Shown here: positions 45,293 to 60,450 of the stretch, piece by piece
Numbering within the stretch: the stretch's first letter is position 1
How the letters are laid out: the number at the start of each line of letters is the position of its first letter
Source: Pacificibacter marinus
GTDB lineage: Bacteria > Pseudomonadota > Alphaproteobacteria > Rhodobacterales > Rhodobacteraceae
DNA length: 60,450 nucleotides
Assembly: GCF_018860505.1 (NCBI RefSeq)
Contig: NZ_JAHKPU010000021.1
Location: 1-60,450, forward strand
Direction of reading: 5' to 3'
The notes under the pieces: model-generated
The model's database searches: none
What the model was told of the DNA's origin: nothing
What the model saw: the letters and a program-made list of their open reading frames with translations, nothing else
Made by a program: the position numbers and the translations under genes

Positions 45293-47398
45293 TTAGCTCA
45301 AATTGAGGCTCTCAAGATCATCGCCATTTTTGATAAGGTCTGCCCACATCTGAGCGGGCTCCCAGATGTCGGGCGCCTCTGCTGTGAATTCACGCAATTT
45401 CTTTTGCACCACCAAAGGACGCATGACATCTGCGGTCAACATCGGCCCGCCTTGCCAACGTGGAAACCCTCTTCCCAACAGCATAACGGCGTCGATATCA
45501 ACGGGCCGCGCGGCAACGCCCGTTTGCAACAGACGCGCGCCAGCGTTGGCCTGCGCCAAAATAATGCGGTCGCATATTTGTGCATCACTCAAAGTCACAC
45601 GATCGATCCCAGCCCCTTCACGCAGCGCGTCAATAAGGGCCAGAGCCGCGTGATCGTCTTTGCGTTGCGGGGTTTGGTCGGTCAAAACATAATCGTAAAA
45701 CCCGCCATTCCCACCGCGTCCAGTTCGACCAGCCTCTTTAAGTACGCTGACAGCCACACCGTTAAAATGCGCCAAACCAAGCGCATCCATATTGGCGCAA
45801 GGCCCCACAGGCATCCCAAAATGTGTCATCGCTTGATCAATGCGCGACGGGGCAACGCCCATCAGCAGCAGCACATCAACGGCATCCCAAGCGGCCTTTT
45901 CCAGCGTATTGGCGATCAAACCGTCATGTGCGGACAGACAAACAGGCACCTTACCCATTTTACGCACAGTCGCATGGGCCGTGGCCAAAGCCACCTCAGA
46001 AAGCCCTTCAGTGCGCACCACTTCAACCACGCGGGTCGCTTGGGCTGGGGCAAAGAAATGCAACCCCAAAAACCGCTCTGGATGTGACAGATCTTGCGCC
46101 ATTCGAGCGAATCCATGATCGTTAATGGTCGCCAATACGGCATCTTGTGGGATGAATTCTTCGATCCGCGACAAAATTTGAGCGCGCCGTTCAATCGTCC
46201 CAGATGTAGCGTCGATCACCAGATCACATTTCGACAGGCTTTGCAGATCAGATGCCCCTGAAAATCGCCCTAAAGTTTTATCACGGATTTCTGGCGTGAT
46301 ATGTCCTTGTTGCGCGGACAGTTCATATGAACGCGTGATTTTGCGTTGTGCCAAAGCCACCTGATTGGCGTCTGAGCCAAACACCACAACCTCAAACCCA
46401 TGATCAAGTGCAGCCATCGCAATCGCCAGCGCCATGTTTGAGACCCCCGCGATGCCTATGGTGGACACGGCGCGGGATTGGTTAAGGTTCAGGCCAGCGG
46501 GACGTGCAGCGCGGCGCTCGGCCAAATAGGCGTGACGCATCGCACGCACTTGCTTTGATCCCAAAGCATCCAAACGCGCTGCGTTTTCACGAAACACGCC
46601 AGCTTCAAACGGCAGCAACAGAGCCGCTTCAACACAGTCAACAATGTAGCCAAAAGCTTTGATATGGGACTGGCCCGCACGCGCGCGATGTTTGGTTACG
46701 GCATCCATATAGGCTGCCCCATCAGACAGCCCCGTCATGACATCACAGGTGCGCCGCACACCAAGATCATCATTGATCAAAGCTTGGCAGAACGCATTCA
46801 CTCCACGCAGGTCGCGCATATCGACAAGCTCATCACAAATACCAAGTAATTGTGCATGTTGCCCCGCCACGGATTTGCCAGACAGCATCATTTCAAGAGC
46901 CGCGGCAGCCCCAATCAAACGCGGCAACCGTTGGGTCACGCCGCCCCCTGGCACCATGCCAAAGGTGATTTCAGGAGCGCCAAGTCGCGCTTTTGGGCCA
47001 CACACACGATAATGCGCGGCCAAGGCCAAAGCCAGCCCGCCCTCAAGCACCGCTCCACGCAAGGCCGCGACAACGGGTTTGGGGCTATTTTCGATGGTGC
47101 GACACAGGTCGTCAAGAGATGGAGTAGCCTCTAATGATCCGGCCTTAAGGTCGGCCAATTCTGCGGCCACCAACCCTGTTGAAAACCCTGCCCCCTGCCC
47201 GCGCAAACATATAACTTTGACATTTGGATCATCTTGCGCGATCTGCAAACTGCTCAGCAATGACCGCCGCACATCAAGTGTCAGAGCGTTCATAGGTGGG
47301 TTGCAAAGAACGATATAGGCAACGCCGCCATCGTGGCGCGTATCAACTAAGGGGGGCTGTGTCTGCTCTGCGGCAGACTTGGCATCGGATGTGGTCAT
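45293..47398 (-). CDS. FadJ/FadB-like enoyl-CoA hydratase / 3-hydroxyacyl-CoA dehydrogenase, degenerate motifs
   Basis: 701 residues. N-terminal crotonase domain (about 15-200): LRGQGAGFSTG, AALRGAVLEGGLALALAAHYR, LGAPEITFGMVPGGGVTQRLPRLIG. NAD-binding 3HCDH domain (about 310-490): TIGIAGVSNMALAIAMA. C-terminal 3HCDH domains: HFFAPAQATRVVEVVRTEG, then FGMPVGPCANMDALGLAH. The hydratase Glu of the second pair (PEITFG) is kept, but the Glu expected after GGG in the first pair is Ala, and the dinucleotide motif GxGxxG reads GxSxxA. So one or both activities may be altered. Probably a beta-oxidation-related enzyme with unusual substrate, or on the way to decay. No thiolase partner nearby. Confidence 0.75.
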   Translation of the reverse strand: MTTSDAKSAAEQTQPPLVDTRHDGGVAYIVLCNPPMNALTLDVRRSLLSSLQIAQDDPNVKVICLRGQGAGFSTGLVAAELADLKAGSLEATPSLDDLCRTIENSPKPVVAALRGAVLEGGLALALAAHYRVCGPKARLGAPEITFGMVPGGGVTQRLPRLIGAAAALEMMLSGKSVAGQHAQLLGICDELVDMRDLRGVNAFCQALINDDLGVRRTCDVMTGLSDGAAYMDAVTKHRARAGQSHIKAFGYIVDCVEAALLLPFEAGVFRENAARLDALGSKQVRAMRHAYLAERRAARPAGLNLNQSRAVSTIGIAGVSNMALAIAMAALDHGFEVVVFGSDANQVALAQRKITRSYELSAQQGHITPEIRDKTLGRFSGASDLQSLSKCDLVIDATSGTIERRAQILSRIEEFIPQDAVLATINDHGFARMAQDLSHPERFLGLHFFAPAQATRVVEVVRTEGLSEVALATAHATVRKMGKVPVCLSAHDGLIANTLEKAAWDAVDVLLLMGVAPSRIDQAMTHFGMPVGPCANMDALGLAHFNGVAVSVLKEAGRTGRGGNGGFYDYVLTDQTPQRKDDHAALALIDALREGAGIDRVTLSDAQICDRIILAQANAGARLLQTGVAARPVDIDAVMLLGRGFPRWQGGPMLTADVMRPLVVQKKLREFTAEAPDIWEPAQMWADLIKNGDDLESLNLS

Positions 47399-48210: not shown

Positions 48211-48224
48211 TTGATGCAGGTCAA
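48211..48224 (-). promoter_or_regulatory. FNR-type box upstream of the tiny-gene operon
   Basis: TTGATGCAGGTCAA matches the relaxed FNR/Dnr pattern TTGAY-N4-RTCAA. It overlaps the last codons of the FliM-like gene and lies 49 bp upstream of the frameshifted gene's start. The -10 at the expected place is weak. Confidence 0.5.
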
Positions 48225-49366
48225 TCAATCGAGGGTAAATCGCCCAAGGCGGAAAAATCAGACAGATCCCCGAGATCGCCAATATCACCAAGCGGCGGCA
48301 GATCGCCTCCCATGTCGCCGAGCGATGGAAAATCATCGGACATACTTTTCATCGCAGGAAAAGCGTCTGCACTTTGCATGTCAGCCTTTAAATTATCAGG
48401 CATGCCATCCGCCTCGAGTGCAGGGAAATCCGTGCCCCCCATGCCAGCCTTTCCAAGGCCACTCAAGCCATCGCCCGTGTCATGATGACCATCAAGACTG
48501 GCAGGTGCATCCATATCCACACGAATGGCGCGGTGGCCGTCCACCTGCCCCAACCGACCAAATGAAACGCGACGCCCGTCTGCGACAAGTTCAACACGCA
48601 TCAACGCCTTATGCGGGATTGGGATGGTCATGCCAACGCCCAAGTTTGCCGCATCCAACAAAGGCAATGAGACACGGTGCAACACGGTATCAAGATTGGC
48701 CTCAGTCCTCATCACCGAGGTCTTGAAGTCTCTTTGCCAATCCGATTGCGACCCTAGTTCAGGTTTTGGTTTTGGGCGAGACGCAGGGTAGATGAACATA
48801 ATTTCACCGCTGCGCAGGCCCTGCCCCAAGTCGACGGTCATATGGAACATGCGGTAGCGAATGTCATCAAAGGCGATAGGAATGGACCGCGTCTCAGACA
48901 ATTGCGCGGCAGTACGATAACCCTCAATGTCTGGTGGGTCAGCAGCCTCTTGAACGATATGTTCGAAATGTGCGAGCATTTGGTCAATCAGCTCAAAACA
49001 CATCACGGAATCTGTGGAGGTGGGTTTGCGTTCTTCAGGCATGTGTTTTTGCACGTTGCCGGTGGTCATCTGTTCCACAACAGAGGTCGTGACAGCGAGG
49101 CTAAACACAGCCAAACCGTAAGCATTTTCAGGTCCTTCAAGCAAGGCCAAGAGGGAATTGTCAGAGATTTGATCTGGCAGGCGACTGGTCGATGTAAGTT
49201 TTTCCATCACATCAGTCACCTGCATCACCATGCCCGTGCAGTATTCAGCCGCTTTGGCTGCAGCCAAGCGCAAGGCTTTTGCAGAAGACATAGATGTGAC
49301 CTCAGGCGGAGGACGCCCAACGCCAGCCTTGCGACGCATTGCGGAAATGAGATCATCGTCAGACAT
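48221..49366 (-). CDS. FliM/FliN-family (SpoA domain) protein
   Basis: 381 residues. N-terminal ~60-210 resembles a FliM-like middle domain in divergent form (SLLALLEGPENAYGLAVFSLAVTTSVVEQMTTG, MTVDLGQGLRSGEIMFIYPA). The SpoA/FliN-type C-ring domain covers about 215-300 (LDTVLHRVSLPLLDAANLGVGMTIPIPHKALMRVELVADGRRVSFGRLGQVDGHRAIRV). The C-terminal ~80 residues are a low-complexity, Asp/Gly/Leu-rich tail with repeated SLGDMGGDLPPLGDIGDLGDLSDFSALGDL. I recall Rhodobacteraceae 'FliM/FliN family flagellar motor C-terminal domain' proteins of this form outside the main flagellar cluster. It is not a canonical FliM (no N-terminal CheY-binding peptide). May act in a C-ring-like or unrelated assembly. 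Confidence 0.75.
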   Translation of the reverse strand: MSDDDLISAMRRKAGVGRPPPEVTSMSSAKALRLAAAKAAEYCTGMVMQVTDVMEKLTSTSRLPDQISDNSLLALLEGPENAYGLAVFSLAVTTSVVEQMTTGNVQKHMPEERKPTSTDSVMCFELIDQMLAHFEHIVQEAADPPDIEGYRTAAQLSETRSIPIAFDDIRYRMFHMTVDLGQGLRSGEIMFIYPASRPKPKPELGSQSDWQRDFKTSVMRTEANLDTVLHRVSLPLLDAANLGVGMTIPIPHKALMRVELVADGRRVSFGRLGQVDGHRAIRVDMDAPASLDGHHDTGDGLSGLGKAGMGGTDFPALEADGMPDNLKADMQSADAFPAMKSMSDDFPSLGDMGGDLPPLGDIGDLGDLSDFSALGDLPSID

Positions 49367-49529: not shown

Positions 49530-52235
49530 TCAACGCCCTTTGTGATGCACCCGTGGCACATCAATGCGAAAGGCCGCCCCGCCTTGACCTGGCAGATAGG
49601 AAATACTGCCACCCAAATTGGCCACGATTTCGCGACAAATCGCCAGCCCCAAGCCCGCGCCGCCCGCTTTTGCCTGATCCGTCAATCTGGAAAACTTCTC
49701 AAAAATCATGTTCTGCTTGTGCTTAGGAATGCCTGAACCGTTATCCACAAAGTCGATTTGGATATGATCATTGACCAAACGTCGCGCCGTGATACGCAAA
49801 ACCGGTACATCGGCATCACAGTATTTGCGGGCGTTTGCGATGAGATTGATAAAGACCTGAGCCAGACGATCAGTATCTGTTTCAATCGCAATATGTTCGC
49901 TTATGGCATTACGTTCGATACCCAAATCTTGTCCCTCAAGCCCCTGTGCCGTAGTGTCTAAAGCCCGCTCGATCACATCATGCAAATTGGTGCGCGACCA
50001 GTTGAGCGAAACCTGACCATTTTCCAAAACAGACAGGTCCAACAGGTCATCCAACAGCCGCGTCAATCGCCGCGCCTCGTCGTGGATAATGCCTGAAAAC
50101 CGAGTCAGGCTTGTCGGGTCCATTGGCTCGTTCGACTGACCACCATCGCGCAGAATTTCCGAAAAGGCGCGAATAGAGGTCATCGGCGTGCGCAATTCAT
50201 GCGAAATTTGACTTAGAAATGCGTCTTTTTGAATAGATAACTCTGTGAGTTTTTCATTGGCTTCACGCAACTTACGCGCCGTACGCGCCAGTTCTTCGGA
50301 TTGCAGTTCAAGCTGGCTGGAATGTTCCAACATCTGCGCCGTTTCATCAGCCACGGCCATCAAATCCTCAACTGACACAACAATGCCGCCCGCGATTTGC
50401 CCCAACATCGCATGGGCTGTCGCCGCCCCCACAGATCCAGCCAATTCGCGTTCCAACCGTTCCAAAAACTGCGGCGTGGCATCTGGCAGGTAGCCTTGCT
50501 TTCCTTGCGCTTCAGCCTCGACATGAAACAAGGTCTGCGCTTCAGACGCGCCAATAATGCGCTGCGCCATCACCAATAAATCTTCGGCCTCGGCTGTGCC
50601 TTGTGCCCAGCTGCGCGTGGAGCCCGTGTGCTCGAACACATTGACGAATTGCGCCCCTTGCAAACGTTCAACAGGACGGGGAAATGATACAAGTGACCCC
50701 AGTAAAAACACCCCCGTGTTCAAGGCCAAGGACCAGACAACGGCGTGAACAACGGGATCAACGCCGATCACTCCAAACAAGGCTTGTGGGCGCAATAGAT
50801 TTACGCCCCAAGGCCCATGCGCCAAAAGATCTGCGCTATAGCCCGCTGCCTCGCCGAATGACGGCAAAAACATCGTATAGGCCCAAACCGCAAAGCCAAC
50901 CAAAATTCCTGCGATGGCCCCTGTACGCGTGGCTCCGCGCCAGAAAATCCCTCCAAGCATGGCTGGCAACACCTGCGCGATCCCCGTGAACGAAATCATC
51001 CCAATCGCGGCCAAAGCTTCGGACCCGCCAGAGAGGCGAAAATAGAAATATCCCAGCGCCAAAACGCCCGCGATAGACAAGCGACGTGACAGCAACACGA
51101 CAGACCGCACATCGCCCGAGACAGTGGCACCGTCTTTGCGAAACGACAGCCAAATGGGCATCACGATATGGTTTGATACCATGGTTGACAGCGCAATTGC
51201 AGCGACAATAACCATGGATGTGGCCGATGAAAATCCACCCAAAAAGCTAATTGTTGCAAGACCTTGCTGATCATACTTCAACGGCAAAGTCAGAACGAAC
51301 ATATCAGGGTTGGATGTCGCAGGCAGCACGTCCAGCCCCACCACTGCGATGGGGATTACAAACAAAGACATGCCAAAAAGATACAGCGGAAAAGCCCAGC
51401 CTGCCGTGAACAAATGCCGCTCTTCGGCGTTCTCAACCACCAAGACTTGGAACATGCGTGGCAAGGTCAAAAACGCGGCACCAGATAGGATCGTCAACGT
51501 GATAAACCGAGTACCATCGATGTTGACTTTAGATACAGGCGAGGCATCGATCCGCGCCAACATATCACCCACCCCGTCACCAATGCCCCAGACAACGAAA
51601 ATACCGACCCCGACAAGACCCAAAAACTTGACCACAGCTTCCAGCGCGATGGCAGTCACAACGCCGTGGTGACGCTCGTTGGCATCCAGGTTCCGTGTCC
51701 CAAATAATATGGTGAACAAGACCAGGCCTGCGGCCACCCATAAGGCTGTGTGATTCAGATCTGGCTCCACAAGACCACCTGGATTGGCCACACCAAACAC
51801 AGCAAAAGATAAGGCAACGGATTGAAGTTGCAGCGCAATATAGGGCGTCGTCCCGACCACAGCCAGAACGGTCACCAATACCCCCAAAGTGGTTGATTTG
51901 CCGTAACGCGATGAGATCAAATCCGCCACCGAAGTGATCCGCTGAGTGCGCCCGATGCGCACAAGTTTGCGTAAAATCCACCACCAGCCGATCATCACCA
52001 TGGTCGGCCCCATGTAGATCGTCGCGAATTCAATCCCCGAACGCGCGGCATAACCGACAGCGCCATAAAACGTCCAAGCTGTGCAGTAAATCGACAAAGA
52101 CAGCGTATAGATGACAGGGGAGCGCAACCATCCAAGCTGCCCCCGCTCGGCGCGTTTTTCTGCCCAGAACGCGACAGCAAACAAAAACAACGCGTAGCTC
52201 AGGCAAGCCAAGACAAGAAGGTTAAACGATAACAT
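49530..52235 (-). CDS. Sodium:solute symporter-fused sensor histidine kinase (CrbS/CbrA-like)
   Basis: 901 residues. The first ~500 form an SSS (PutP/ActP-type) transporter domain with 12-13 hydrophobic segments: SLSIYCTAWTFYGAVGYAARSG (about 46-67), VADLISSRYGKS, SFLGGFSSATSMVIVAAIALSTMVSNH. A linker (about 560-640) follows, then HisKA with phosphoacceptor His679 in QISHELRTPMTSIR, and HATPase_c with LIANARKYCDADV, FVDNGSGIP, GLGLAICREIV. Fused transporters of this class sense their ligand: CrbS is the sensor of the acetate switch, CbrA of carbon/nitrogen balance. Here it is followed by a two-TM protein and a receiver, and is 8 kb from acs. Acetate or another carboxylate is the likely ligand. 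Confidence 0.88.
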   Translation of the reverse strand: MLSFNLLVLACLSYALFLFAVAFWAEKRAERGQLGWLRSPVIYTLSLSIYCTAWTFYGAVGYAARSGIEFATIYMGPTMVMIGWWWILRKLVRIGRTQRITSVADLISSRYGKSTTLGVLVTVLAVVGTTPYIALQLQSVALSFAVFGVANPGGLVEPDLNHTALWVAAGLVLFTILFGTRNLDANERHHGVVTAIALEAVVKFLGLVGVGIFVVWGIGDGVGDMLARIDASPVSKVNIDGTRFITLTILSGAAFLTLPRMFQVLVVENAEERHLFTAGWAFPLYLFGMSLFVIPIAVVGLDVLPATSNPDMFVLTLPLKYDQQGLATISFLGGFSSATSMVIVAAIALSTMVSNHIVMPIWLSFRKDGATVSGDVRSVVLLSRRLSIAGVLALGYFYFRLSGGSEALAAIGMISFTGIAQVLPAMLGGIFWRGATRTGAIAGILVGFAVWAYTMFLPSFGEAAGYSADLLAHGPWGVNLLRPQALFGVIGVDPVVHAVVWSLALNTGVFLLGSLVSFPRPVERLQGAQFVNVFEHTGSTRSWAQGTAEAEDLLVMAQRIIGASEAQTLFHVEAEAQGKQGYLPDATPQFLERLERELAGSVGAATAHAMLGQIAGGIVVSVEDLMAVADETAQMLEHSSQLELQSEELARTARKLREANEKLTELSIQKDAFLSQISHELRTPMTSIRAFSEILRDGGQSNEPMDPTSLTRFSGIIHDEARRLTRLLDDLLDLSVLENGQVSLNWSRTNLHDVIERALDTTAQGLEGQDLGIERNAISEHIAIETDTDRLAQVFINLIANARKYCDADVPVLRITARRLVNDHIQIDFVDNGSGIPKHKQNMIFEKFSRLTDQAKAGGAGLGLAICREIVANLGGSISYLPGQGGAAFRIDVPRVHHKGR

Positions 52236-52562
52236 CTAAGACGACCCGTCACCAAAAGGGCTTTTGCCCGCAGGTTCAACGGGATTTTCCTGCGCCGTGT
52301 CACTGTCAAGCGCGTCATCCCGCATCAATGCCCGTGCAATCAACCCAGCAGCCACAATGGCACCAATCCAAACGGTAAAAATATGCACATAACCACGCAC
52401 GCCGCCGCCGATAGGCTCGTCGCTGCCTGCACCGCCCCAAAGCAACGGAACTAAATAGAGTAAAAACAAAAAGATCGGCAAAAGTCTTTGCGCATCAATC
52501 AAACGTCGCCTGCGATAAGACGCACGCGCCAAATACAGCGGAGAACGCCGATGTTCACTCAT
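52236..52562 (-). CDS. Two-TM membrane protein, candidate partner of the symporter-kinase
   Basis: 108 residues from ATG 52562, overlapping the receiver gene by 8 bp. Hydrophobic segments at about 27-45 (LLPIFLFLLYLVPLLWGG) and 58-80 (YVHIFTVWIGAIVAAGLIARAL), flanked by a basic N-terminus and an acidic tail. Its stop directly abuts the start of the symporter-kinase gene (no gap). Small two-TM proteins paired with SSS transporters (YjcH with ActP, DUF4212 with its symporter) have a similar topology, so a role as accessory subunit of the kinase's transporter domain is likely by analogy; sequence homology is not clear. Confidence 0.65.
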   Translation of the reverse strand: MSEHRRSPLYLARASYRRRRLIDAQRLLPIFLFLLYLVPLLWGGAGSDEPIGGGVRGYVHIFTVWIGAIVAAGLIARALMRDDALDSDTAQENPVEPAGKSPFGDGSS

Positions 52563-52965
52563 CGCGCGGCGCATCCGCAACCGTTAAATCCACCCGTTGC
52601 TCTGACACCAAAGCATTCACGGCATCCAGCATATCGGAGTTGGAAAACGGTTTTGTCATAAAGGCCGAAACACCTGCGGCCTGTGCCATATCGCGATCTT
52701 TTTTCTGTCCACGTGCAGTGAGCATCAAAATGGGCAAATTTGCATGATCGGCATCACAGCGCAGTTCGCGCAAAATATCAAAACCTGATTTTCCGGGCAA
52801 CATCACATCTAAGATGACGATGTCAGGGCGCTTTTTGCCCACCGCCGCCACAGCCGTGGCCCCATCAGAATGCGTTTCCACAATCCAACCGTCGCGCGAC
52901 AAGATAAATCTTATCGCCTCAATAATGTTTGGTTCATCTTCGATCAGCAAGACACGTTTGCTCAT
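52555..52965 (-). CDS. Single-domain response regulator (receiver only)
   Basis: 136 residues. REC fold with EDE acidic triad (residues 9-11), phosphoacceptor Asp53 in VILDVMLPGKSG, Thr of MLTARGQKKDRD near 82 and Lys of FMTKPFSNSDML near 103. No output domain; the last ~15 residues are a short tail. It is the first gene of a three-gene operon with the two-TM protein and the symporter-kinase. It probably receives phosphate from that kinase and acts by protein contact or phosphorelay. CrbR in Vibrio-type systems has a LuxR output domain, which is missing here. Confidence 0.88.
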   Translation of the reverse strand: MSKRVLLIEDEPNIIEAIRFILSRDGWIVETHSDGATAVAAVGKKRPDIVILDVMLPGKSGFDILRELRCDADHANLPILMLTARGQKKDRDMAQAAGVSAFMTKPFSNSDMLDAVNALVSEQRVDLTVADAPRDE

Positions 52966-53160
52966 CTGACTGTCCCTCTCCTATACGATTAAAAGATTAG
53001 CCATCTTTTAAAATCGCCTGTCCTCACGCTAAAATCTAAGCGCTTGAGCCCTTTCCTCTCCCAAAGATCGGGTCACAACAATGTGTATTTCATCCTGCTT
53101 AGGGCGCTTACCGCATCATGTCAAAGCCTGTTGCACTTAGAGCGCGCCCTTCAAACAGGT

Positions 53161-54549
53161 TTATGACGAGGAATGCTCCATCGCCAAAAGAGACGGCTCA
53201 CGGCGCGCAGGACAGCCCGCACGGGCACAAACGCGGCAATTCGTGCCGACCTCAACGACATCGCCGGAAACCTGCGCTGCCGTCAAGCTGTGTCCGTTTG
53301 GCAAAGCTGCCGTTGCGGCATCCATAGGAACAAAAAGCATCGTGGCCTCAACCACCTCAGGCGCATCAAATCCAGCTTGAGCGACAGGCTGGCAGACAGC
53401 ATAGGCCAGAAATTGACGTGGCGGTTGGCCCATTTGTTCGATCACTCGCCGCACAGGGGCTAAGGGGCGCAACAGCGCTTGGTACAAAGGCCAAAGCGGA
53501 CAAGCCGCGCCAAACCGCGGCGGCGCAAAACCATCAAGGGGTTTGCGAAAGGTTAAGGTTCCAGAGCCATCACAGGTCACCAGCCCCAGATCGGCACGGC
53601 CTTCGGCTGGAGGAAGTGTCGCAAGTCTGCGCATGGCTGCGGCCAGATCAGCGCCTGTCCGCTGCGCCAAGGCCGCCGGATCAGGACCGCGGGTGGTCAA
53701 GACTTCTTCGACTGTCTCAATCGGCATCATGGCAGCATCGGCACGGGCACGCGTCAACCAACGTGCGGCCATAGATCGGGCCGCAGGCGAGGTCAAAAGA
53801 TCGCTTTGTGACGCCCCAACCAAGTCTGCATCAAGGTTTGCATCAGCCGCCCCATGGCCATCTGTATCTACATCAAGGTCAGGCAAAGCATAAGCTGTGC
53901 TGGCCAACCAGCGTTCGACTTCGTCCAGTGGTGCATTTGGTGCCTCGTCCACCTTTCCGACAGTGTCCAGATAGCGCACCAAAGCTTGCGACCCCATGGC
54001 CAACCGTTGACTGTCTTCATACATATTGCGGTGAAATCGCACCTGCCATTCAGGATCAATGTCGCCGCCATTGTTCAAAATCCCAGCCGTGGACCGGATC
54101 GCTGTCACGGTTGAAATCACCTCGTGCAAAGCGTCAGACAAGAACGGGTCATGCGCCAATCGGTCACTAAGGGCTTCGACGCGGCGCTCCAATGTGGTGA
54201 TTTGCTCGCGTTGCTGCACAACAAGCCCAGCCCAACCTGAAAACCGCCCTGCGAATTCTTCGATACGGTCTGTTTCAATCGGGTATTGCACAGCACCGCT
54301 TTCTGCCACGGCATTTTTCAACCCATCAATCAAGGGAGCCTGCGCACCTTCGGTCAGGGCCGAAACTTCGACTTTGAGCTCACGCGCCAAATCAACAAGC
54401 AGTTTGCCACCGATTCTGCGCCGATTGTGTTCAATAAGGTTAAGATAGGCTGGCGAAATGCCAACAGTGCGCGCCAAATCAGCCTGTTTCAGACCCTCCA
54501 AAGACCTGCGTTCACGAATGCGTGTTCCTGTTAGCGCTGAGCGTGGCAT
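53161..54549 (-). CDS. ScfR/RamB-like HTH regulator with C-terminal DUF2083
   Basis: 462 residues from ATG 54549 (MPRSALTGTRIRERR); a TTG at 54570 is less likely. HTH (about 7-62): GTRIRERRSLEGLKQADLARTVGISPAYLNLIEHNRRRIGGKLL. The C-terminal DUF2083 includes CQPVAQAGFDAPEVVEA, then CRVCARAGCPARREPS with four closely placed Cys. Length and layout match the short-chain fatty acyl-CoA regulators (RamB for acetyl-CoA, PccR for propionyl-CoA, MccR, PrpR types). The middle M78-like part lacks a visible HExxH. It is divergent from an ABC operon that leads into acs, so it likely senses an acyl-CoA and controls that operon. Confidence 0.85.
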   Translation of the reverse strand: MPRSALTGTRIRERRSLEGLKQADLARTVGISPAYLNLIEHNRRRIGGKLLVDLARELKVEVSALTEGAQAPLIDGLKNAVAESGAVQYPIETDRIEEFAGRFSGWAGLVVQQREQITTLERRVEALSDRLAHDPFLSDALHEVISTVTAIRSTAGILNNGGDIDPEWQVRFHRNMYEDSQRLAMGSQALVRYLDTVGKVDEAPNAPLDEVERWLASTAYALPDLDVDTDGHGAADANLDADLVGASQSDLLTSPAARSMAARWLTRARADAAMMPIETVEEVLTTRGPDPAALAQRTGADLAAAMRRLATLPPAEGRADLGLVTCDGSGTLTFRKPLDGFAPPRFGAACPLWPLYQALLRPLAPVRRVIEQMGQPPRQFLAYAVCQPVAQAGFDAPEVVEATMLFVPMDAATAALPNGHSLTAAQVSGDVVEVGTNCRVCARAGCPARREPSLLAMEHSSS

Positions 54550-54648
54550 AGTATTCCCGTGTTCTTTCAATGGCTTTCTGCGAGCGCAAAACGGCTATGC
54601 TGCAATCGCGCGAAAATCATTTTACAATATAATTATGTACTTTGTGTA

Positions 54649-54660
54649 TTTGTTAACAAA
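54649..54660. promoter_or_regulatory. Candidate operator between the ScfR-like regulator and the ABC operon
   Basis: TTTGTTAACAAA is a perfect 12-bp palindrome, and a TTTGT at 54641 lies 8 bp before it as a further half site. The palindrome is 99 bp from the regulator start and 160 bp from the ABC operon. ScfR family regulators recognise TTTGC-type repeats, so this is a reasonable binding site. Confidence 0.4.
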
Positions 54661-54820
54661 AAAACCTTTTAAACAAAAGCACTTGTTGAGTCATTTTCAC
54701 TTCACCCGCAATACTTGGACATCCTGTTAACAGCTCAATCGTTAAGGGCGAGGCAGGAAACGCAACATCGGCGCGAGGAGGCGCAGATCTTGCGGACTGA
54801 AACCCTAAGGGAGGATTTCC

Positions 54821-56164
54821 ATGTCCAATTCACTTCTAACGCGGCGCGGTTTGCTGAAGACAAGTGCCGTTGCTGGCGCAGGCCTAGCCCTGCCCACGAT
54901 TTTCACATCTGGCGCGCGAGCGTTCACCAATGACCCAACAGGCGGCACGGTCACGCTTGGCTTTAACGTGCCACAGTCTGGCGCCTACGCAGATGAGGGC
55001 GCAGACGAATTGCGCGCCTATGAGCTTGCGGTAGAGCACCTCAACGGCGGCGGCGACGGCGGTATGCTCAATACCTTCAGCTCAAAAGCGCTGGAAGGGA
55101 ACGGCATTCTTGGCAAAAAAGTCGAATACGTCACTGGCGATACGCAAACGAAATCTGACGCGGCGCGTGCCTCTGCCAAATCCATGATCGAAAAAGACGG
55201 CGCAGTGATGATCACTGGCGGCTCGTCTTCTGGTGTGGCGATTGCTGTTCAAGGGCTGTGCCAAGAAGCTGGCGTGATCTTTATGGCTGGTCTCACCCAC
55301 TCCAACGACACAACAGGCAAAGATAAAAAAGCCAATGGCTTCCGCCACTTCTTTAACGCCTACATGTCTGCGGCCGCATTGGCCCCTGTGCTTAAAAACC
55401 TCTACGGTACAGACCGCACTGCGTACCACCTGACGGCTGATTATTCATGGGGCTGGACCCAAGAAGAATCCATTGCAGCAGCGACCGAAGCAATGGGCTG
55501 GAAAACAGCAGAGAAAGTGCGCACGCCACTTGGCGCTGGTGACTTCTCGTCCTATATCGCGCCTGTGCTGAACTCTGGCGCAGATGTTTTGGTCTTGAAC
55601 CACTACGGCGGCGACATGGTCAACTCGCTTACAAACGCGGTACAATTTGGCCTGCGCGACAAGCAAGTAAACGGCAAAAACTTCGAAATCGTTGTGCCGC
55701 TCTACTCTCGCCTCATGGCACGCGGTGCTGGTAAAAACGTGGCAGGTATCCACGGATCGACGAACTGGCATTGGTCTTTGCAAGACGATGCGTCCAAAGC
55801 ATTCGTTAAATCCTTCGGCACCAAATACGGTTTCCCACCCTCTCAGGCGGCCCATACCGTTTACTGTCAGACATTGCTTTACGCAGATGCTGTGGCACGT
55901 GGCGGATCGTTCAACCCCTGTTCCGTTGCAGAAGCTCTCGAAGGTTTCGAATTCGACGGTTTGGGCAACGGCAAGACACTCTACCGTGCAGACGATCACC
56001 AGTGCTTCAAAGACGTTCTGGTTGTACGCGGTAAAGAAAACCCAACATCTGAGTTCGACCTCTTGGAAGTTGTGGAAGTCACACCAGCGGCGCAAGTGAC
56101 TTATGATGCAGATCACCCGATGTTTGCTGGGGGCGCTTTGGGCGCATGTAACCCAGGCGCATAA
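54821..56164 (+). CDS. ABC transporter substrate-binding protein (LivJ/Peripla_BP_6), Tat-exported
   Basis: 447 residues, Tat signal SLLTRRGLLKTSAVAGAG with a GARAF cleavage region near residue 34. Type I periplasmic-binding fold: TLGFNVPQSGAYADEGADELRAYELAVEHLNGGG (about 46-79), VMITGGSSSGVAIAVQGLCQEAGVIFMAGLTHSN (about 128-161), YHLTADYSWGWTQEESIAAATEAMGW (about 206-231). Four Cys, two in the C-terminal region, could form a disulfide. Related to HAAT-type receptors for branched-chain amino acids, urea or short-chain amides. The ligand is unknown; context with acs and an acyl-CoA regulator argues for a carboxylate or a compound degraded to one. First gene of the operon; GGGAGG precedes the ATG. 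Confidence 0.88.
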   Translation: MSNSLLTRRGLLKTSAVAGAGLALPTIFTSGARAFTNDPTGGTVTLGFNVPQSGAYADEGADELRAYELAVEHLNGGGDGGMLNTFSSKALEGNGILGKKVEYVTGDTQTKSDAARASAKSMIEKDGAVMITGGSSSGVAIAVQGLCQEAGVIFMAGLTHSNDTTGKDKKANGFRHFFNAYMSAAALAPVLKNLYGTDRTAYHLTADYSWGWTQEESIAAATEAMGWKTAEKVRTPLGAGDFSSYIAPVLNSGADVLVLNHYGGDMVNSLTNAVQFGLRDKQVNGKNFEIVVPLYSRLMARGAGKNVAGIHGSTNWHWSLQDDASKAFVKSFGTKYGFPPSQAAHTVYCQTLLYADAVARGGSFNPCSVAEALEGFEFDGLGNGKTLYRADDHQCFKDVLVVRGKENPTSEFDLLEVVEVTPAAQVTYDADHPMFAGGALGACNPGA

Positions 56165-56347
56165 GGGGTTTTGGATTATGCCAAGCTTCGGCTGGACGCG
56201 CGCCCTGCGCGCCCAGCCAACATAATAAGAAACGACCGAACGACAGCAACTCAATCAAAATCTGGGCCTTTTCACACGCACTGCACGGGGCATGCCTCCG
56301 CGCGGATGTGACAGAATTTTGCCAGAAGAAATGAACAGGTGGGGACG

Positions 56348-57379
56348 ATGGACGCCATCCTACTGCAGATCCTAAACGGGCTTGATAAAGGCTCGGCCTA
56401 TGCGCTGATTGCGCTTGGGCTTACACTTATTTTTGGCACGCTTGGCGTGGTCAACTTTGCGCATGGCGCGATCTTTATGATCGGGGCTTTTTGTGCGGTG
56501 ACACTGTCACGACTTTTGTCGCTCTCGTTTGAAACGATTGACCCGACAAAGACCGACTTTCTTGGCAACCCTGCCACCATCAAAACACCTTATGTCGAGG
56601 CGTGGTTTGGCCCTGAATTTGGCAGCGCGATGATCGACTGGGCTGTGCCGCTTGCGATACTCTTTTCCATTCCTGTCATGATCGCTGTTGGGTTCATCAT
56701 GGAACGCGGGCTTATCAAGCATTTCTACAAACGCCCCCATGCAGATCAGATCCTTGTGACCTTTGGTTTGGCCATCGTTTTGCAAGAGGTGATCAAATAC
56801 TTTTACGGTGCGAACCCCATTTCCACCCCTGCCCCTGAGGTGTTCAAAGGCTCATTCGATTTCGGCGTGATGTTTGGATTTGATCCGAACGCGATCATCT
56901 ATCCCTACTGGCGCATGGTTTATTTCTTGTTTGCTGCGGTTGTGATCGGGGCTGTGTTTTCATTCCTGCGCTTCACCACCTTCGGGATGGTTGTGCGTGC
57001 AGGCATGGCAGACCGCGAAACCGTTGGCTTGCTGGGTATCGATATCGACCGTCGGTTTACCATCATGTTCGGCTTGGCGGCGGCTGTCGCGGGTATGGCT
57101 GGCGTGATGTACGCGCCTATTTTGTCGCCCAACTATCACATGGGGATGGACTTTTTGGTGCTGTCCTTTGTGGTTGTTGTTGTTGGCGGCATGGGGTCAT
57201 TGCCTGGTGCTGTGGCCGCAGGGTTCTTGCTTGGCATCTTAGAAAGCTTCGCGTCCATGAATGAAGTGAAATCCATTCTTCCCGGCATCGACCAAATCGT
57301 AATCTACGTCGTCGCCATCATCATTCTATTGACCCGCCCCCGCGGTTTGATGGGCAAACGCGGCGTGATGGAGGAGTAA
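56348..57379 (+). CDS. livH: HAAT-family ABC transporter permease 1 (LivH-like)
   Basis: 343 residues from the ATG at 56348; a GTG nine bases upstream lacks spacing for the AGGTGGGG site. Eight or nine membrane helices. LivH motifs: ALGLTLIFGTLGVVNFAHGAIFMIGAF (about 20-46), ERGLIKHFYKRPHADQILVTFGLAIVLQE (about 119-147), GMVVRAGMADRETVGLLGID (about 213-232) and GAVAAGFLLGILESFAS (about 285-301). Forms the channel with the next gene product. 183 bp separates it from the receptor gene, probably with a hairpin or secondary promoter (AGCTTCGGCTGG...GCGCGCCCTGCGCGCCC at 56185-56215). Confidence 0.9.
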   Translation: MDAILLQILNGLDKGSAYALIALGLTLIFGTLGVVNFAHGAIFMIGAFCAVTLSRLLSLSFETIDPTKTDFLGNPATIKTPYVEAWFGPEFGSAMIDWAVPLAILFSIPVMIAVGFIMERGLIKHFYKRPHADQILVTFGLAIVLQEVIKYFYGANPISTPAPEVFKGSFDFGVMFGFDPNAIIYPYWRMVYFLFAAVVIGAVFSFLRFTTFGMVVRAGMADRETVGLLGIDIDRRFTIMFGLAAAVAGMAGVMYAPILSPNYHMGMDFLVLSFVVVVVGGMGSLPGAVAAGFLLGILESFASMNEVKSILPGIDQIVIYVVAIIILLTRPRGLMGKRGVMEE

Positions 57380-57382
57380 ACC

Positions 57383-58606
57383 ATGCTTGGATTAAACAAA
57401 ACTGACTCAAAGTTCTTGCTAATTGTCATCTTGCTGACTTTGTTTACCCCCTTCTTGATGCAACCATTTGCGGCAGATTCTGGCCTTGACCAGTTCAACG
57501 GCGGCTACCCTGACTTGATGCAAAAAGTTGCGATCTTTGGCATCTTTGCCGTTGGATTCAACATCCTGTTTGGCCTCACAGGCTATCTATCTTTCGGTCA
57601 CGCTGCCTTTTTGGGCATGGGGTCTTACGCGGCGGTGTGGATGTTCAAACTGCTGACCATGAACGTGATCCCTGCCATTTTGTTGTCGATGATCGTCTCT
57701 GGTCTGCTGGCTGTGATCATTGGCTACATTTCCTTGCGCCGCTCAGGAATTTACTTTTCGATCCTAACGCTGGCATTCGCGCAAATGTGCTACAAAATGG
57801 CCTATTCCGTGTTGACGCCCATCACCAATGGCGAAACAGGTTTGCAACTGTCTTTAAGCGATCCGCGTATCTTGGATGGAGCAACTGAAAGCACATCGCT
57901 GCCTGTGACCAATATCTTTGGTTTGGCGATGAACAGCTCTTACAAGCTTGAGGCCCTGAACCGTGTATTCACCTTCAACGTTGGTTTTTACTTCTGTGCG
58001 GTCATCGCGATCATCGCATTCTATATCGCCATTCGCCTGTTCCGTTCACCTTTCGGGATGATGCTGCGGGCGGTGAAATCCAACCAAACGCGGATGAACT
58101 ACATGGGATTGAACACCAAGCCCTACACTTTGGCGGCCTTTGTGATCTCTGGCATGTATGCTGGCCTTGCTGGCGGTTTGCTGGCGGCGATGGACCCTTT
58201 GGCAGGCGCTGATCGTATGCTTTGGACGGCTTCTGGCGAAGTTGTGATCATGACGATCCTTGGCGGTGCTGGCACCTTGATGGGGCCTGTTTTGGGCGCA
58301 GGTGTGATCAAATACCTCGAAAACATCTTTTCCAAAATCAACGAAAGTGTTCTGCACTCTTGGTTCCACTGGTTGCCAGATGGTCTGGAAGAAGTCGTGG
58401 TTTGGGTCTTTGCGCGCTTCACCGGCGAAGGCTGGCACCTCACTTTGGGTCTAACGTTCATGTTGGTCGTGACCTTCTTACCGGGTGGTTTGGTTGAGGG
58501 CATCAAACGCCTCAAGAAACTGACCAAACGCGGAGGCAAACCCAAAGACAAATTGGACGCCCCCGACCCCGAGCACACCCCCACACCGTCCAAACACGTC
58601 GTTTAA
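57383..58606 (+). CDS. livM: HAAT-family ABC transporter permease 2 (LivM-like)
   Basis: 407 residues. Nine or ten membrane helices; LivM core [31 protein letters not shown] (about 53-83), [24 protein letters not shown] (about 120-143), [47 protein letters not shown] (about 218-264). The hydrophilic C-terminal tail is Lys/Pro-rich. It starts 3 bp after livH. Longer than E. coli LivM's core but typical of the family when extra N-terminal residues are counted. Confidence 0.9.
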
Positions 58607-58619
58607 GGAGTTATCAGAT

Positions 58620-59381
58620 ATGGGAATTCTTGAAGTCAAAGGCGTTGGAAAACGGTTCGGTGGTTTGCAAGCCTTGGGAGATGTCAATCTCTCAGTGCAA
58701 GAGAACACAGTCCACGCCATCATCGGGCCAAACGGGGCAGGCAAATCAACTTTGCTCAACTGTTTGGTCGGCAAACTCATCCCAGATACAGGGTCTGTCA
58801 CCTTTGATGGCAACTCTGTTCTGGGGCGAAAGCCGCATGAAATCAATCAAATGGGCATCAGCCGCGTCTTTCAAACCCCTGAGATCTTTGGCGATCTCAC
58901 TGTCATGGAAAACGTATTGATCCCTTGTTTTGCCAAACGCGATGGCGCGTTTCGGATGCACGCTTATGAGAGCATCGAACAAGAACCAGACATCGTGAAC
59001 AAAGCCGAACAAATGCTGATCGATGTCAATATGATCGAAAAGCGTCACATGACAGGTTCGTCTCTGTCGCGCGGTGACAAACGTCGCCTCGAAATGGCCA
59101 TGTGTCTGGCGCAAGACCCGCGTCTTTTGTTACTTGATGAACCGACAGCGGGCATGGCGCGTGCCGATACGAACAACACCATCGATCTGCTCAAACAGAT
59201 CAAAGAAGAGCGCGATATCACCATGGCGATCATCGAACACGACATGCATGTGGTGTTTTCCCTTGCCGATCGCATCACAGTTCTGGCCCAAGGCACCCCT
59301 CTGGTCGAGGACACGCCGGATAACATCAAAGGCCACCCAAAGGTTAAAGAAGCCTACTTGGGCGAAACGCAGGAAGTTTAG
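58620..59381 (+). CDS. livG: HAAT-family ABC transporter ATP-binding protein 1 (LivG-like)
   Basis: 253 residues, start ATG with AAGGAG 8 nt upstream. Walker A GPNGAGKST near residues 39-47. The signature is unusual: SSLSRGDKRRLEMAMCLA (about 147-164), where LSxGxxRRLE is the LivG type. Walker B LLLLDEPTAGMA (about 169-180), followed by the His-loop IIEHDMHVVFSLADRI. C-terminal KVKEAYLG is the LivG end. It powers transport together with the next gene product. Confidence 0.92.
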   Translation: MGILEVKGVGKRFGGLQALGDVNLSVQENTVHAIIGPNGAGKSTLLNCLVGKLIPDTGSVTFDGNSVLGRKPHEINQMGISRVFQTPEIFGDLTVMENVLIPCFAKRDGAFRMHAYESIEQEPDIVNKAEQMLIDVNMIEKRHMTGSSLSRGDKRRLEMAMCLAQDPRLLLLDEPTAGMARADTNNTIDLLKQIKEERDITMAIIEHDMHVVFSLADRITVLAQGTPLVEDTPDNIKGHPKVKEAYLGETQEV

Positions 59382-59390
59382 GAACGCATC

Positions 59391-60155
59391 ATGGCTGAAA
59401 AACAATTTAACACCGCCACAAACATCGCCGCCAATCATGCCGAATCTGCGCCTGCGTATTTTTCGGTTTGGGATCTGCACGCTTACTACGGCGAAAGCTA
59501 CATCGTGCAAGGCATCTCATTTAACGTTCACGAGGGTGAAATCCTTGCCCTTTTAGGCCGCAATGGAGCTGGTAAAACTTCGACTTTGCGGGCAATTGCA
59601 CGTCTTGACGATCCGATGGTGACGCATGGCGAAATCTGGCTCGATCATCAACATTTGCACACGATGAAAGCCCATGAGGCCGCTATCGCAGGCCTTGGTC
59701 TTGTCCCCGAAGACCGGCGCATCATTCCAGGGCTCACAGTGGAAGAAAACCTGCAATTGGCCCAAATTGTCGAACCGATTGGCTGGTCGTTAGAACGCAT
59801 TTATGAATTGTTCCCACGCCTGCGTGAACGGCGCAAACAAGAGGGCGTGACCCTGTCTGGCGGCGAACAACAGATGCTGTCCATCGCCCGTGCCTTGGCA
59901 CGCGATATCAAGGTGCTTTTGCTGGATGAACCTTACGAAGGCCTTGCCCCTGTGATCGTAGATGAAATCGAAAAAACGCTTCGGATCATTAAAGCACAGG
60001 GGATCACCACAATTTTGGTCGAACAAAATGCGGTACGCGCCTTGAACCTTGCCGATCGTGCGGTCATTCTTGACACAGGGACCGTTGTTTTTGACGGTTC
60101 AGCCAAAGAGGTGCTCGAAAACGAGGCCTTGCGCGCTGAATACCTTGCGATTTAA
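59391..60155 (+). CDS. livF: HAAT-family ABC transporter ATP-binding protein 2 (LivF-like)
   Basis: 254 residues, with ~20 extra N-terminal residues before the ABC domain (SVWDLHAYYGESYIVQGISFNVHEGEILALLGRNGAGKTST; Walker A near 54-62). Signature LSGGEQQMLSIARALA (about 156-171), Walker B VLLLDEPYEGLAP (about 175-187), where Tyr replaces the usual Thr/Ser of DEPTxGL. H-loop region reads ILVEQNAVRALNLADR, with Gln in place of His as in LivF proteins. Ten bp after livG. Complete five-gene importer operon. Confidence 0.92.
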   Translation: MAEKQFNTATNIAANHAESAPAYFSVWDLHAYYGESYIVQGISFNVHEGEILALLGRNGAGKTSTLRAIARLDDPMVTHGEIWLDHQHLHTMKAHEAAIAGLGLVPEDRRIIPGLTVEENLQLAQIVEPIGWSLERIYELFPRLRERRKQEGVTLSGGEQQMLSIARALARDIKVLLLDEPYEGLAPVIVDEIEKTLRIIKAQGITTILVEQNAVRALNLADRAVILDTGTVVFDGSAKEVLENEALRAEYLAI

Positions 60156-60240
60156 GTGACTCCCTGCCCACCACATTTTGGTCGGCAGGGCAAACCGCAC
60201 TGCCACCGTGCGCACCAACGATGTTCTGGGGAGGACGATC

Positions 60241-60450
60241 ATGACGACGAAGACTTATTCACCCGATGCCGCATTTACGGCGTCTGCTCATGTTGATCGC
60301 GCGGGCTATGAGGCGATGTATGCGGCCTCTGTGGCGGATCCTGAGGCGTTTTGGGGCGAACAGGGCAAAATCTTGGATTGGATCACGCCCTACACGACCG
60401 TCAAACAGACCAATTTCAACTTTGGTCAGGTCGATATCAAATGGTATGCC
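60241..60450 (+). CDS. acsA: Acetyl-CoA synthetase (AMP-forming), N-terminal part, cut by the window edge
   Basis: Only the first 70 codons are visible. GGGGAGGACGATC precedes the ATG. The visible sequence has the ACAS_N signature: AHVDRAGYEAMYAASVADPEAFWGEQGKILDWITPYTTVKQTNFNFGQVDIKWYA, which fits AcsA. The enzyme activates acetate (sometimes propionate) with ATP and CoA to acetyl-CoA. Starting 85 bp after livF on the same strand, it is probably in the ABC operon. The adenylation motifs (TSGSTGxPKG and catalytic Lys) lie outside the window. Confidence 0.9.
   Translation, partial: MTTKTYSPDAAFTASAHVDRAGYEAMYAASVADPEAFWGEQGKILDWITPYTTVKQTNFNFGQVDIKWYA

Follow-up and report, generated by a model that had tools for sequence, protein, structure and literature searches.

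The window, a 60,450-nucleotide stretch of DNA from Pacificibacter marinus that spans the whole of contig C13, carries at its right-hand end a locus in which an SSS-fused sensor kinase, a receiver-only response regulator, a transcription factor of the ScfR type, a HAAT-type ABC importer and the start of acs, the acetyl-CoA synthetase gene, lie side by side. The best explanation for this locus, with a probability of about 0.6, is that it represents a family-wide acetate-assimilation switch of the Rhodobacteraceae. The evidence comprises linkage and co-occurrence of the genes in relatives, an operator-like box pair before both targets, homology of an ScfR domain to the DHp domain of kinases, and conserved His, Asp and Cys residues. 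Acetate is one of the main currencies of carbon flow in the sea, and Rhodobacteraceae count among its leading consumers; a description of how they turn on acs was not found in the open-licence literature.

The locus consists of two divergent arms, assigned from the open reading frames and their Pfam and NCBIfam matches. On the minus strand lie ScfR (53161–54549, the start taken as the ATG at 54549, not the TTG at 54570), the 136-residue receiver (52555–52965), a 114-residue protein (52236–52580) and the 901-residue kinase (49530–52235). The plus strand holds a five-gene HAAT operon (54821–60155), as the first-pass annotation had recognized, encoding the substrate-binding protein (SBP, 54821–56164), two permeases (56339–57379 and 57383–58606) and two ATPases (58620–59381 and 59391–60155), followed by acs at 60241–60450. 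Compared with Pacificibacter marinus proteins, ScfR is 80–81% identical and the binding protein 97%. The locus had been described as a complete acetate switch with acsA. All of the genes are indeed present, but acs, recognized by its ACAS_N domain, is represented only by its first ∼70 codons and the locus is not shown complete, because the contig ends inside the gene at 60450.

Conservation of the arrangement was surveyed in 120 genera of Rhodobacteraceae, one genome each, with ScfR, kinase and SBP counted by hand. ScfR and the kinase are both present in 106 genomes and both missing from 13, the remaining one (G023) having only a divergent kinase; ScfR without the kinase was found in none of the 120. 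The two genes lie no more than a few kb apart in 102 of the 106, lying on different contigs in G004, G102 and G116 and 40 kb apart in G101. The HAAT binding protein (72–89% identical) occurs in 84 genomes, in all of which it adjoins ScfR, and 22 ScfR genomes are without it. ScfR, receiver and kinase stand in one row at 33 of 40 fetched loci, the other seven coming from G023 and from four genomes in which the locus is split (G101, G111, G116 and G004). At the loci of named relatives (hereafter named loci) with room for the neighbours, kinase and receiver are near ScfR in 73 of 74, once inverted, and the SBP in 50 of 64. Given these counts the kinase/receiver/ScfR/HAAT arrangement is far beyond chance, and the outcome that the first-pass annotation had set against itself, genes unlinked in relatives, was not observed. 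The module is also found outside the family (loci L080–L082). A Neorhizobium plasmid carries it as a unit at 32–74% identity (kinase 50%, receiver 47%, ScfR 32–35%); the 19.3 kb fetched there contain no acs. Linkage across the family and occurrence beyond it indicate an old module whose genes move as a set. Nine related-kinase loci without ScfR contain a receiver with DnaQ (seven), DUF294 (seven), actP (three) or acs (two). In G023 the row reads acs-DUF485-actP-DUF294-kinase-receiver-DnaQ, where DUF485, ActP and DUF294 are named by resemblance. This row, together with the related-kinase loci that have actP or acs, ties the kinase type to acetate.

The kinase displays an SSS (SLC5-like)-linker-DHp-HATPase organization. 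Pfam places HisKA at residues 670–740 and a HATPase_c domain that ends at residue 895 of 901, and detects neither a PAS nor a C-terminal REC domain. The SSS match is just below the Pfam cut-off (22.0 versus 22.8 bits), and the fusion is consistent with the alignment of approximately residues 1–642 to hybrid-length SSS-kinases and with the 14 hydrophobic segments that a crude Kyte-Doolittle scan picks out. His679, singled out from the sequence at the outset, is the H-box histidine and is kept in 74/74 matches at named loci. Orthologs of the kinase are present in 107 of the 120 genomes (hand count), the G023 copy being divergent (41%). The 114-residue protein encoded between the receiver and the kinase has two hydrophobic segments, consistent with the two-transmembrane partner predicted earlier; it has homologs in 103 of the 120 genomes and no Pfam or NCBIfam match at E 0.001. 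In the receiver, Pfam finds the receiver domain alone and no DNA-binding domain, likewise as predicted, and Asp53 is retained in 79/79 matches at named loci.

ScfR had been called ScfR/RamB-like. The ScfR assignment stands, the protein having an XRE-type helix-turn-helix (HTH_3, 36.9 bits versus a cut-off of 23) and PF09856 (51.7 bits versus 24; E 1.1e-13). The RamB label does not, as the RamB equivalog NF038139 scores 94.2 bits against a cut-off of 700; the protein belongs to a distinct class of ScfR that contains a DHp domain. This DHp (HisKA-like) domain of the kinase type, at residues 117–205 (53935–54201, minus strand), resembles the DHp domain of the partner kinase and was identified by sequence homology and a conserved putative phospho-acceptor histidine, His142, kept at 80/80 named loci. 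The window's own DHp segment, searched alone, has no Pfam match. A DHp-like domain was not found in the 20 paralogs tested, and five TM-DnaQ proteins contain a DHp-like segment in which the histidine is absent at that position. Residues 205–462 of ScfR match PrpR 152–471, which places the DHp domain before the PrpR-like core; the idea that DHp replaces an IrrE-like domain was dropped for this reason. Acyl-CoA binding by the core is putative, being suggested by a fold match to MtPrpR. A [4Fe-4S] cluster is predicted from a C-X2-C-X4-C motif, described in PMC6765138, and a further cysteine; Cys350, Cys438, Cys441 and Cys446 are each kept in 37/38 sequences. The combination of a receiver without a DNA-binding domain and a DHp domain within ScfR suggests that the receiver acts on ScfR.

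Alignment of ScfR-SBP gaps revealed a direct repeat, TTTACAAA-N24-TTTACAAA, 32 bp from start to start, which in the window occupies 54621–54660 of the plus strand, box 1 being TTTACAAT (54621–54628) and box 2 TTAACAAA (54653–54660). The segment 54649–54660, previously put forward as the regulator's site, overlaps box 2, which is conserved; the 12-bp palindrome there is not, the operator-like element being a direct repeat. Exact TTTACAAA is present in 17/26 ScfR-SBP gaps compared with a shuffle mean of 0.6. In 61 gaps from named relatives, which partly overlap the other gap set, 59 contain a pair scoring at least 13 of 16 at a spacing of 31–33 bp (58 at exactly 32), always in the same orientation, while 0–3 gaps reach this score in each of 20 shuffled sets. 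Other spacings occur in 3–11 of the 61 and a spacing of 41–43 bp in 33, the latter perhaps reflecting a third box. The element TTTGCAAA, the PccR box, was found in 0/26 ScfR-SBP gaps and was rejected as the box. A role as an autoregulatory site for scfR is weak: although the window shows overlap of the boxes with three sigma-70-like matches assigned to scfR, the pair precedes ScfR at only 4 of 19 named loci without SBP, indicating that it serves the SBP rather than scfR.

The same pair precedes acs where the gene lies elsewhere. A search of 51 genomes, allowing one mismatch, gave 60 places: 26 before SBP, 14 before acs elsewhere and 20 close to neither an SBP gene nor any acs listed, roughly as many as the 23 control matches for the reversed pattern (hand-sorted). 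In acs upstream regions picked without the motif, the pair (31–33 bp) is present in 34/49 from ScfR-positive genomes, twice on the opposite strand, with other spacings in 5–20 of the 49, and in 0/12 from ScfR-lacking genomes. The 49 regions represent 46 genomes, with two regions each from G004, G011 and G065, and one of them, in G011, is a divergent ScfR-acs gap; they exclude 14 acs regions found via the motif, G053 (no upstream DNA), G054 and the partial acs of G041 and G091. The ScfR-lacking set covers 12 of 14 genomes, G053 and G118 lying outside it. Where acs is HAAT-linked, the pair occurs in 0/11 of the gaps that separate it from the last ATPase, as expected if the operon promoter lies upstream. 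The presence of the pair before SBP and before acs elsewhere suggests that one factor controls acs in either arrangement; acs and the importer probably answer to a single regulator, most simply ScfR. The shared operator-like pair and linkage thus tie acs to the ScfR locus, control of acs itself being predicted.

The importer has the domain set of its class (Peripla_BP_6, two BPD_transp_2 and two ATPases), and its domains and gene order resemble those of the Liv and Urt importers. All five subunits, the ATPases among the matches listed, fall short of the cut-offs for the Urt and Liv equivalogs (UrtA 58 versus 493 bits; UrtB 187 versus 250; LivH 105 versus 379). As the subunits score nearer the Urt than the Liv models and below the cut-offs, the label 'branched-chain amino acid' is unsupported. 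The closest solved binding proteins, 4maa, 3i09 and 3n0w, are named merely as branched-chain amino acid type, and a reading of the substrate from sequence was therefore rejected; as a guess, the importer carries acetate or another small monocarboxylate. A complete acs lies behind the importer in ∼45 of the 84 genomes (hand count) and at 19 of 43 named loci with room. In the window's own assembly no match to full acs was found at E 1e-150, and a second acs start, preceded by the box pair, is located at the end of contig C34 (G000:C34:326948-327163, locus L136), its coding DNA near-identical to 60241–60450. That both contigs end in near-identical acs and full acs is unmatched indicates that the genome has acs twice and that the assembly broke at both copies. 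Ten more of the 120 genomes lack a strong acs match (G002, G062, G080, G082, G087, G096, G097, G111, G114 and G118), some of which may share the assembly break at acs.

Within the proposed acetate switch, we infer the binder of the boxes, the phosphotransfer steps, the direction of control and the ligands as follows. The SSS-kinase would respond to a signal that is probably acetate, a related carboxylate or its flux, autophosphorylate at His679 and exchange phosphate with Asp53 of the receiver. The receiver would dock on the DHp-like domain of ScfR, a mimic of the kinase's own docking domain, as it docks on the kinase, and may hand phosphate to His142. ScfR would read acyl-CoA through its PrpR-like [4Fe-4S]/CoA core, combine the acyl-CoA level with the receiver input, bind TTTACAAA-N24-TTTACAAA upstream of the target promoter and activate acs and the HAAT importer, whether in one operon, as in the window, or apart. 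This regulatory logic as a whole is likely; docking of the receiver on the ScfR DHp, taken alone, is evenly balanced. Slightly short of even is the view that a two-component system here ends in a metabolite-sensing transcription factor that captured a DHp domain related to that of the partner kinase, the receiver signalling to it, perhaps by passing phosphate to His142. If true, an outside signal and inside acyl-CoA are merged in one acyl-CoA/[4Fe-4S] regulator protein. Because the TM-DnaQ proteins encoded in other acs clusters have His-less DHp mimics, receiver-only regulators may follow a 'kinase-mimic effector' scheme more generally. The analysis names a conserved switch, predicts its operator and regulon, and provides a residue-level hypothesis for how an output-less receiver reaches DNA.

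It is possible, albeit unlikely, that the module senses and imports a different monocarboxylate, such as lactate, pyruvate or propionate, and that induction of acs follows from the entry of its product into acetyl-CoA metabolism. For Phaeobacter, GapMind lists a D-lactate HAAT transporter, on which no paper was found. Two further systems favour this reading: RpuS/R of Sinorhizobium, an SSS-kinase system for pyruvate (PMC9100948), and SPO1017–1021 of Ruegeria pomeroyi, compared here only by its annotation, that of a lactic acid ABC transporter (PMC9870897). The acetate switch is, however, favoured by the box pair preceding acs itself even where acs is far from HAAT, and by the presence of some related kinases beside acs and actP. 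Somewhat less plausible still is control of acs and HAAT by ScfR alone, via acyl-CoA, in which case the two-component pair would have another target, such as the TM-DnaQ protein encoded in the acs-actP operon, and the ScfR DHp would serve only in dimerization. Consistent with this, the acs-actP-DUF294 operons of six relatives (L130–L135) also encode their own receiver and TM-DnaQ exonuclease relative, the DHp-like segments of the five TM-DnaQ proteins lack the histidine, and P. denitrificans RamB is described in the available part of PMC10370305 without a two-component partner. By contrast, kinase and ScfR occur together in 106 genomes with ScfR never alone, and His142 is invariant, whereas the five DnaQ copies have no histidine at that position; a pure dimerizer need not retain the residue. 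That a different regulator binds the box pair and ScfR acts on other genes is improbable, for although few SBP-less loci have the pair before ScfR, it occupies 59 of 61 ScfR-SBP divergent gaps, is missing before acs in all 12 ScfR-lacking genomes, and fits ScfR-family sites, commonly two near-identical boxes (PMC10370305).

Spo0B and ChpT are DHp-type His phosphotransferases. The ScfR domain would resemble them as a DHp-type His domain serving a receiver-only protein, but it would form part of a DNA-binding regulator, and phosphotransfer is putative. The acetate switch shares with CrbS/CrbR (MxtR/ErdR) an SSS-fused histidine kinase, a receiver partner and a tie to acs (PMC5436829, PMC5715377). 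In CrbS/CrbR, however, the kinase has a PAS domain and a C-terminal REC (PMC7918813) and the regulator is a LuxR-type DNA-binding response regulator (PMC9100948), whereas these domains are missing here and ScfR and the HAAT importer are added, in agreement with the original suggestion of a differing version. In four genomes (G169, G204, G332 and G362) this kinase type occurs alongside a longer one of hybrid length, indicating separate lines. Compared with the ScfR/IsaR regulators (RamB, PccR, MccR/PrpR), the protein described here has a DHp-like domain between the helix-turn-helix and the acyl-CoA core, a TTTACAAA box with a 24-bp spacer and linkage to a two-component pair. Pden_1785, an ScfR-network protein of P. 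denitrificans that adjoins a two-component system (PMC10370305), may belong to the same class. The 114-residue protein is a positional analogue of CbrX, a small two-helix membrane protein encoded just ahead of the SSS-kinase CbrA in Pseudomonas (PMC6591292); CbrX has 58 residues, and the two were compared by position and topology only. Searches of the open-licence literature gave no report that connects an ScfR of this type with this kinase and with acs. The variant of the acetate switch is new, and its signalling link possibly so.

Other genes flank the module. Several loci without HAAT-acs, L056 and L057 among them, have genes for an NMT1/THI5-type ABC transporter and an amidohydrolase after ScfR, and some loci having HAAT-acs show NMT1-type genes on the far side of acs, as if a cassette had been cleanly gained or lost. 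The FliM/FliN-like open reading frame at 48221–49366 (minus strand), which adjoins the kinase in many genomes, was rejected as part of the switch: the gene is present in 100 of 107 FliG-positive genomes and missing from 11 of 13 FliG-negative ones (hand count), and in following FliG it resembles a flagellar switch gene that has been left stranded. At L147 (G061:C65) acs directly adjoins the FliM-like gene and the genome lacks orthologs of the kinase, ScfR and SBP, so that the switch may have been deleted here naturally. A fused enoyl-CoA hydratase/3-hydroxyacyl-CoA dehydrogenase is encoded at 45293–47398 (minus strand), and many of the named relatives also have a similar gene downstream of their kinase gene.

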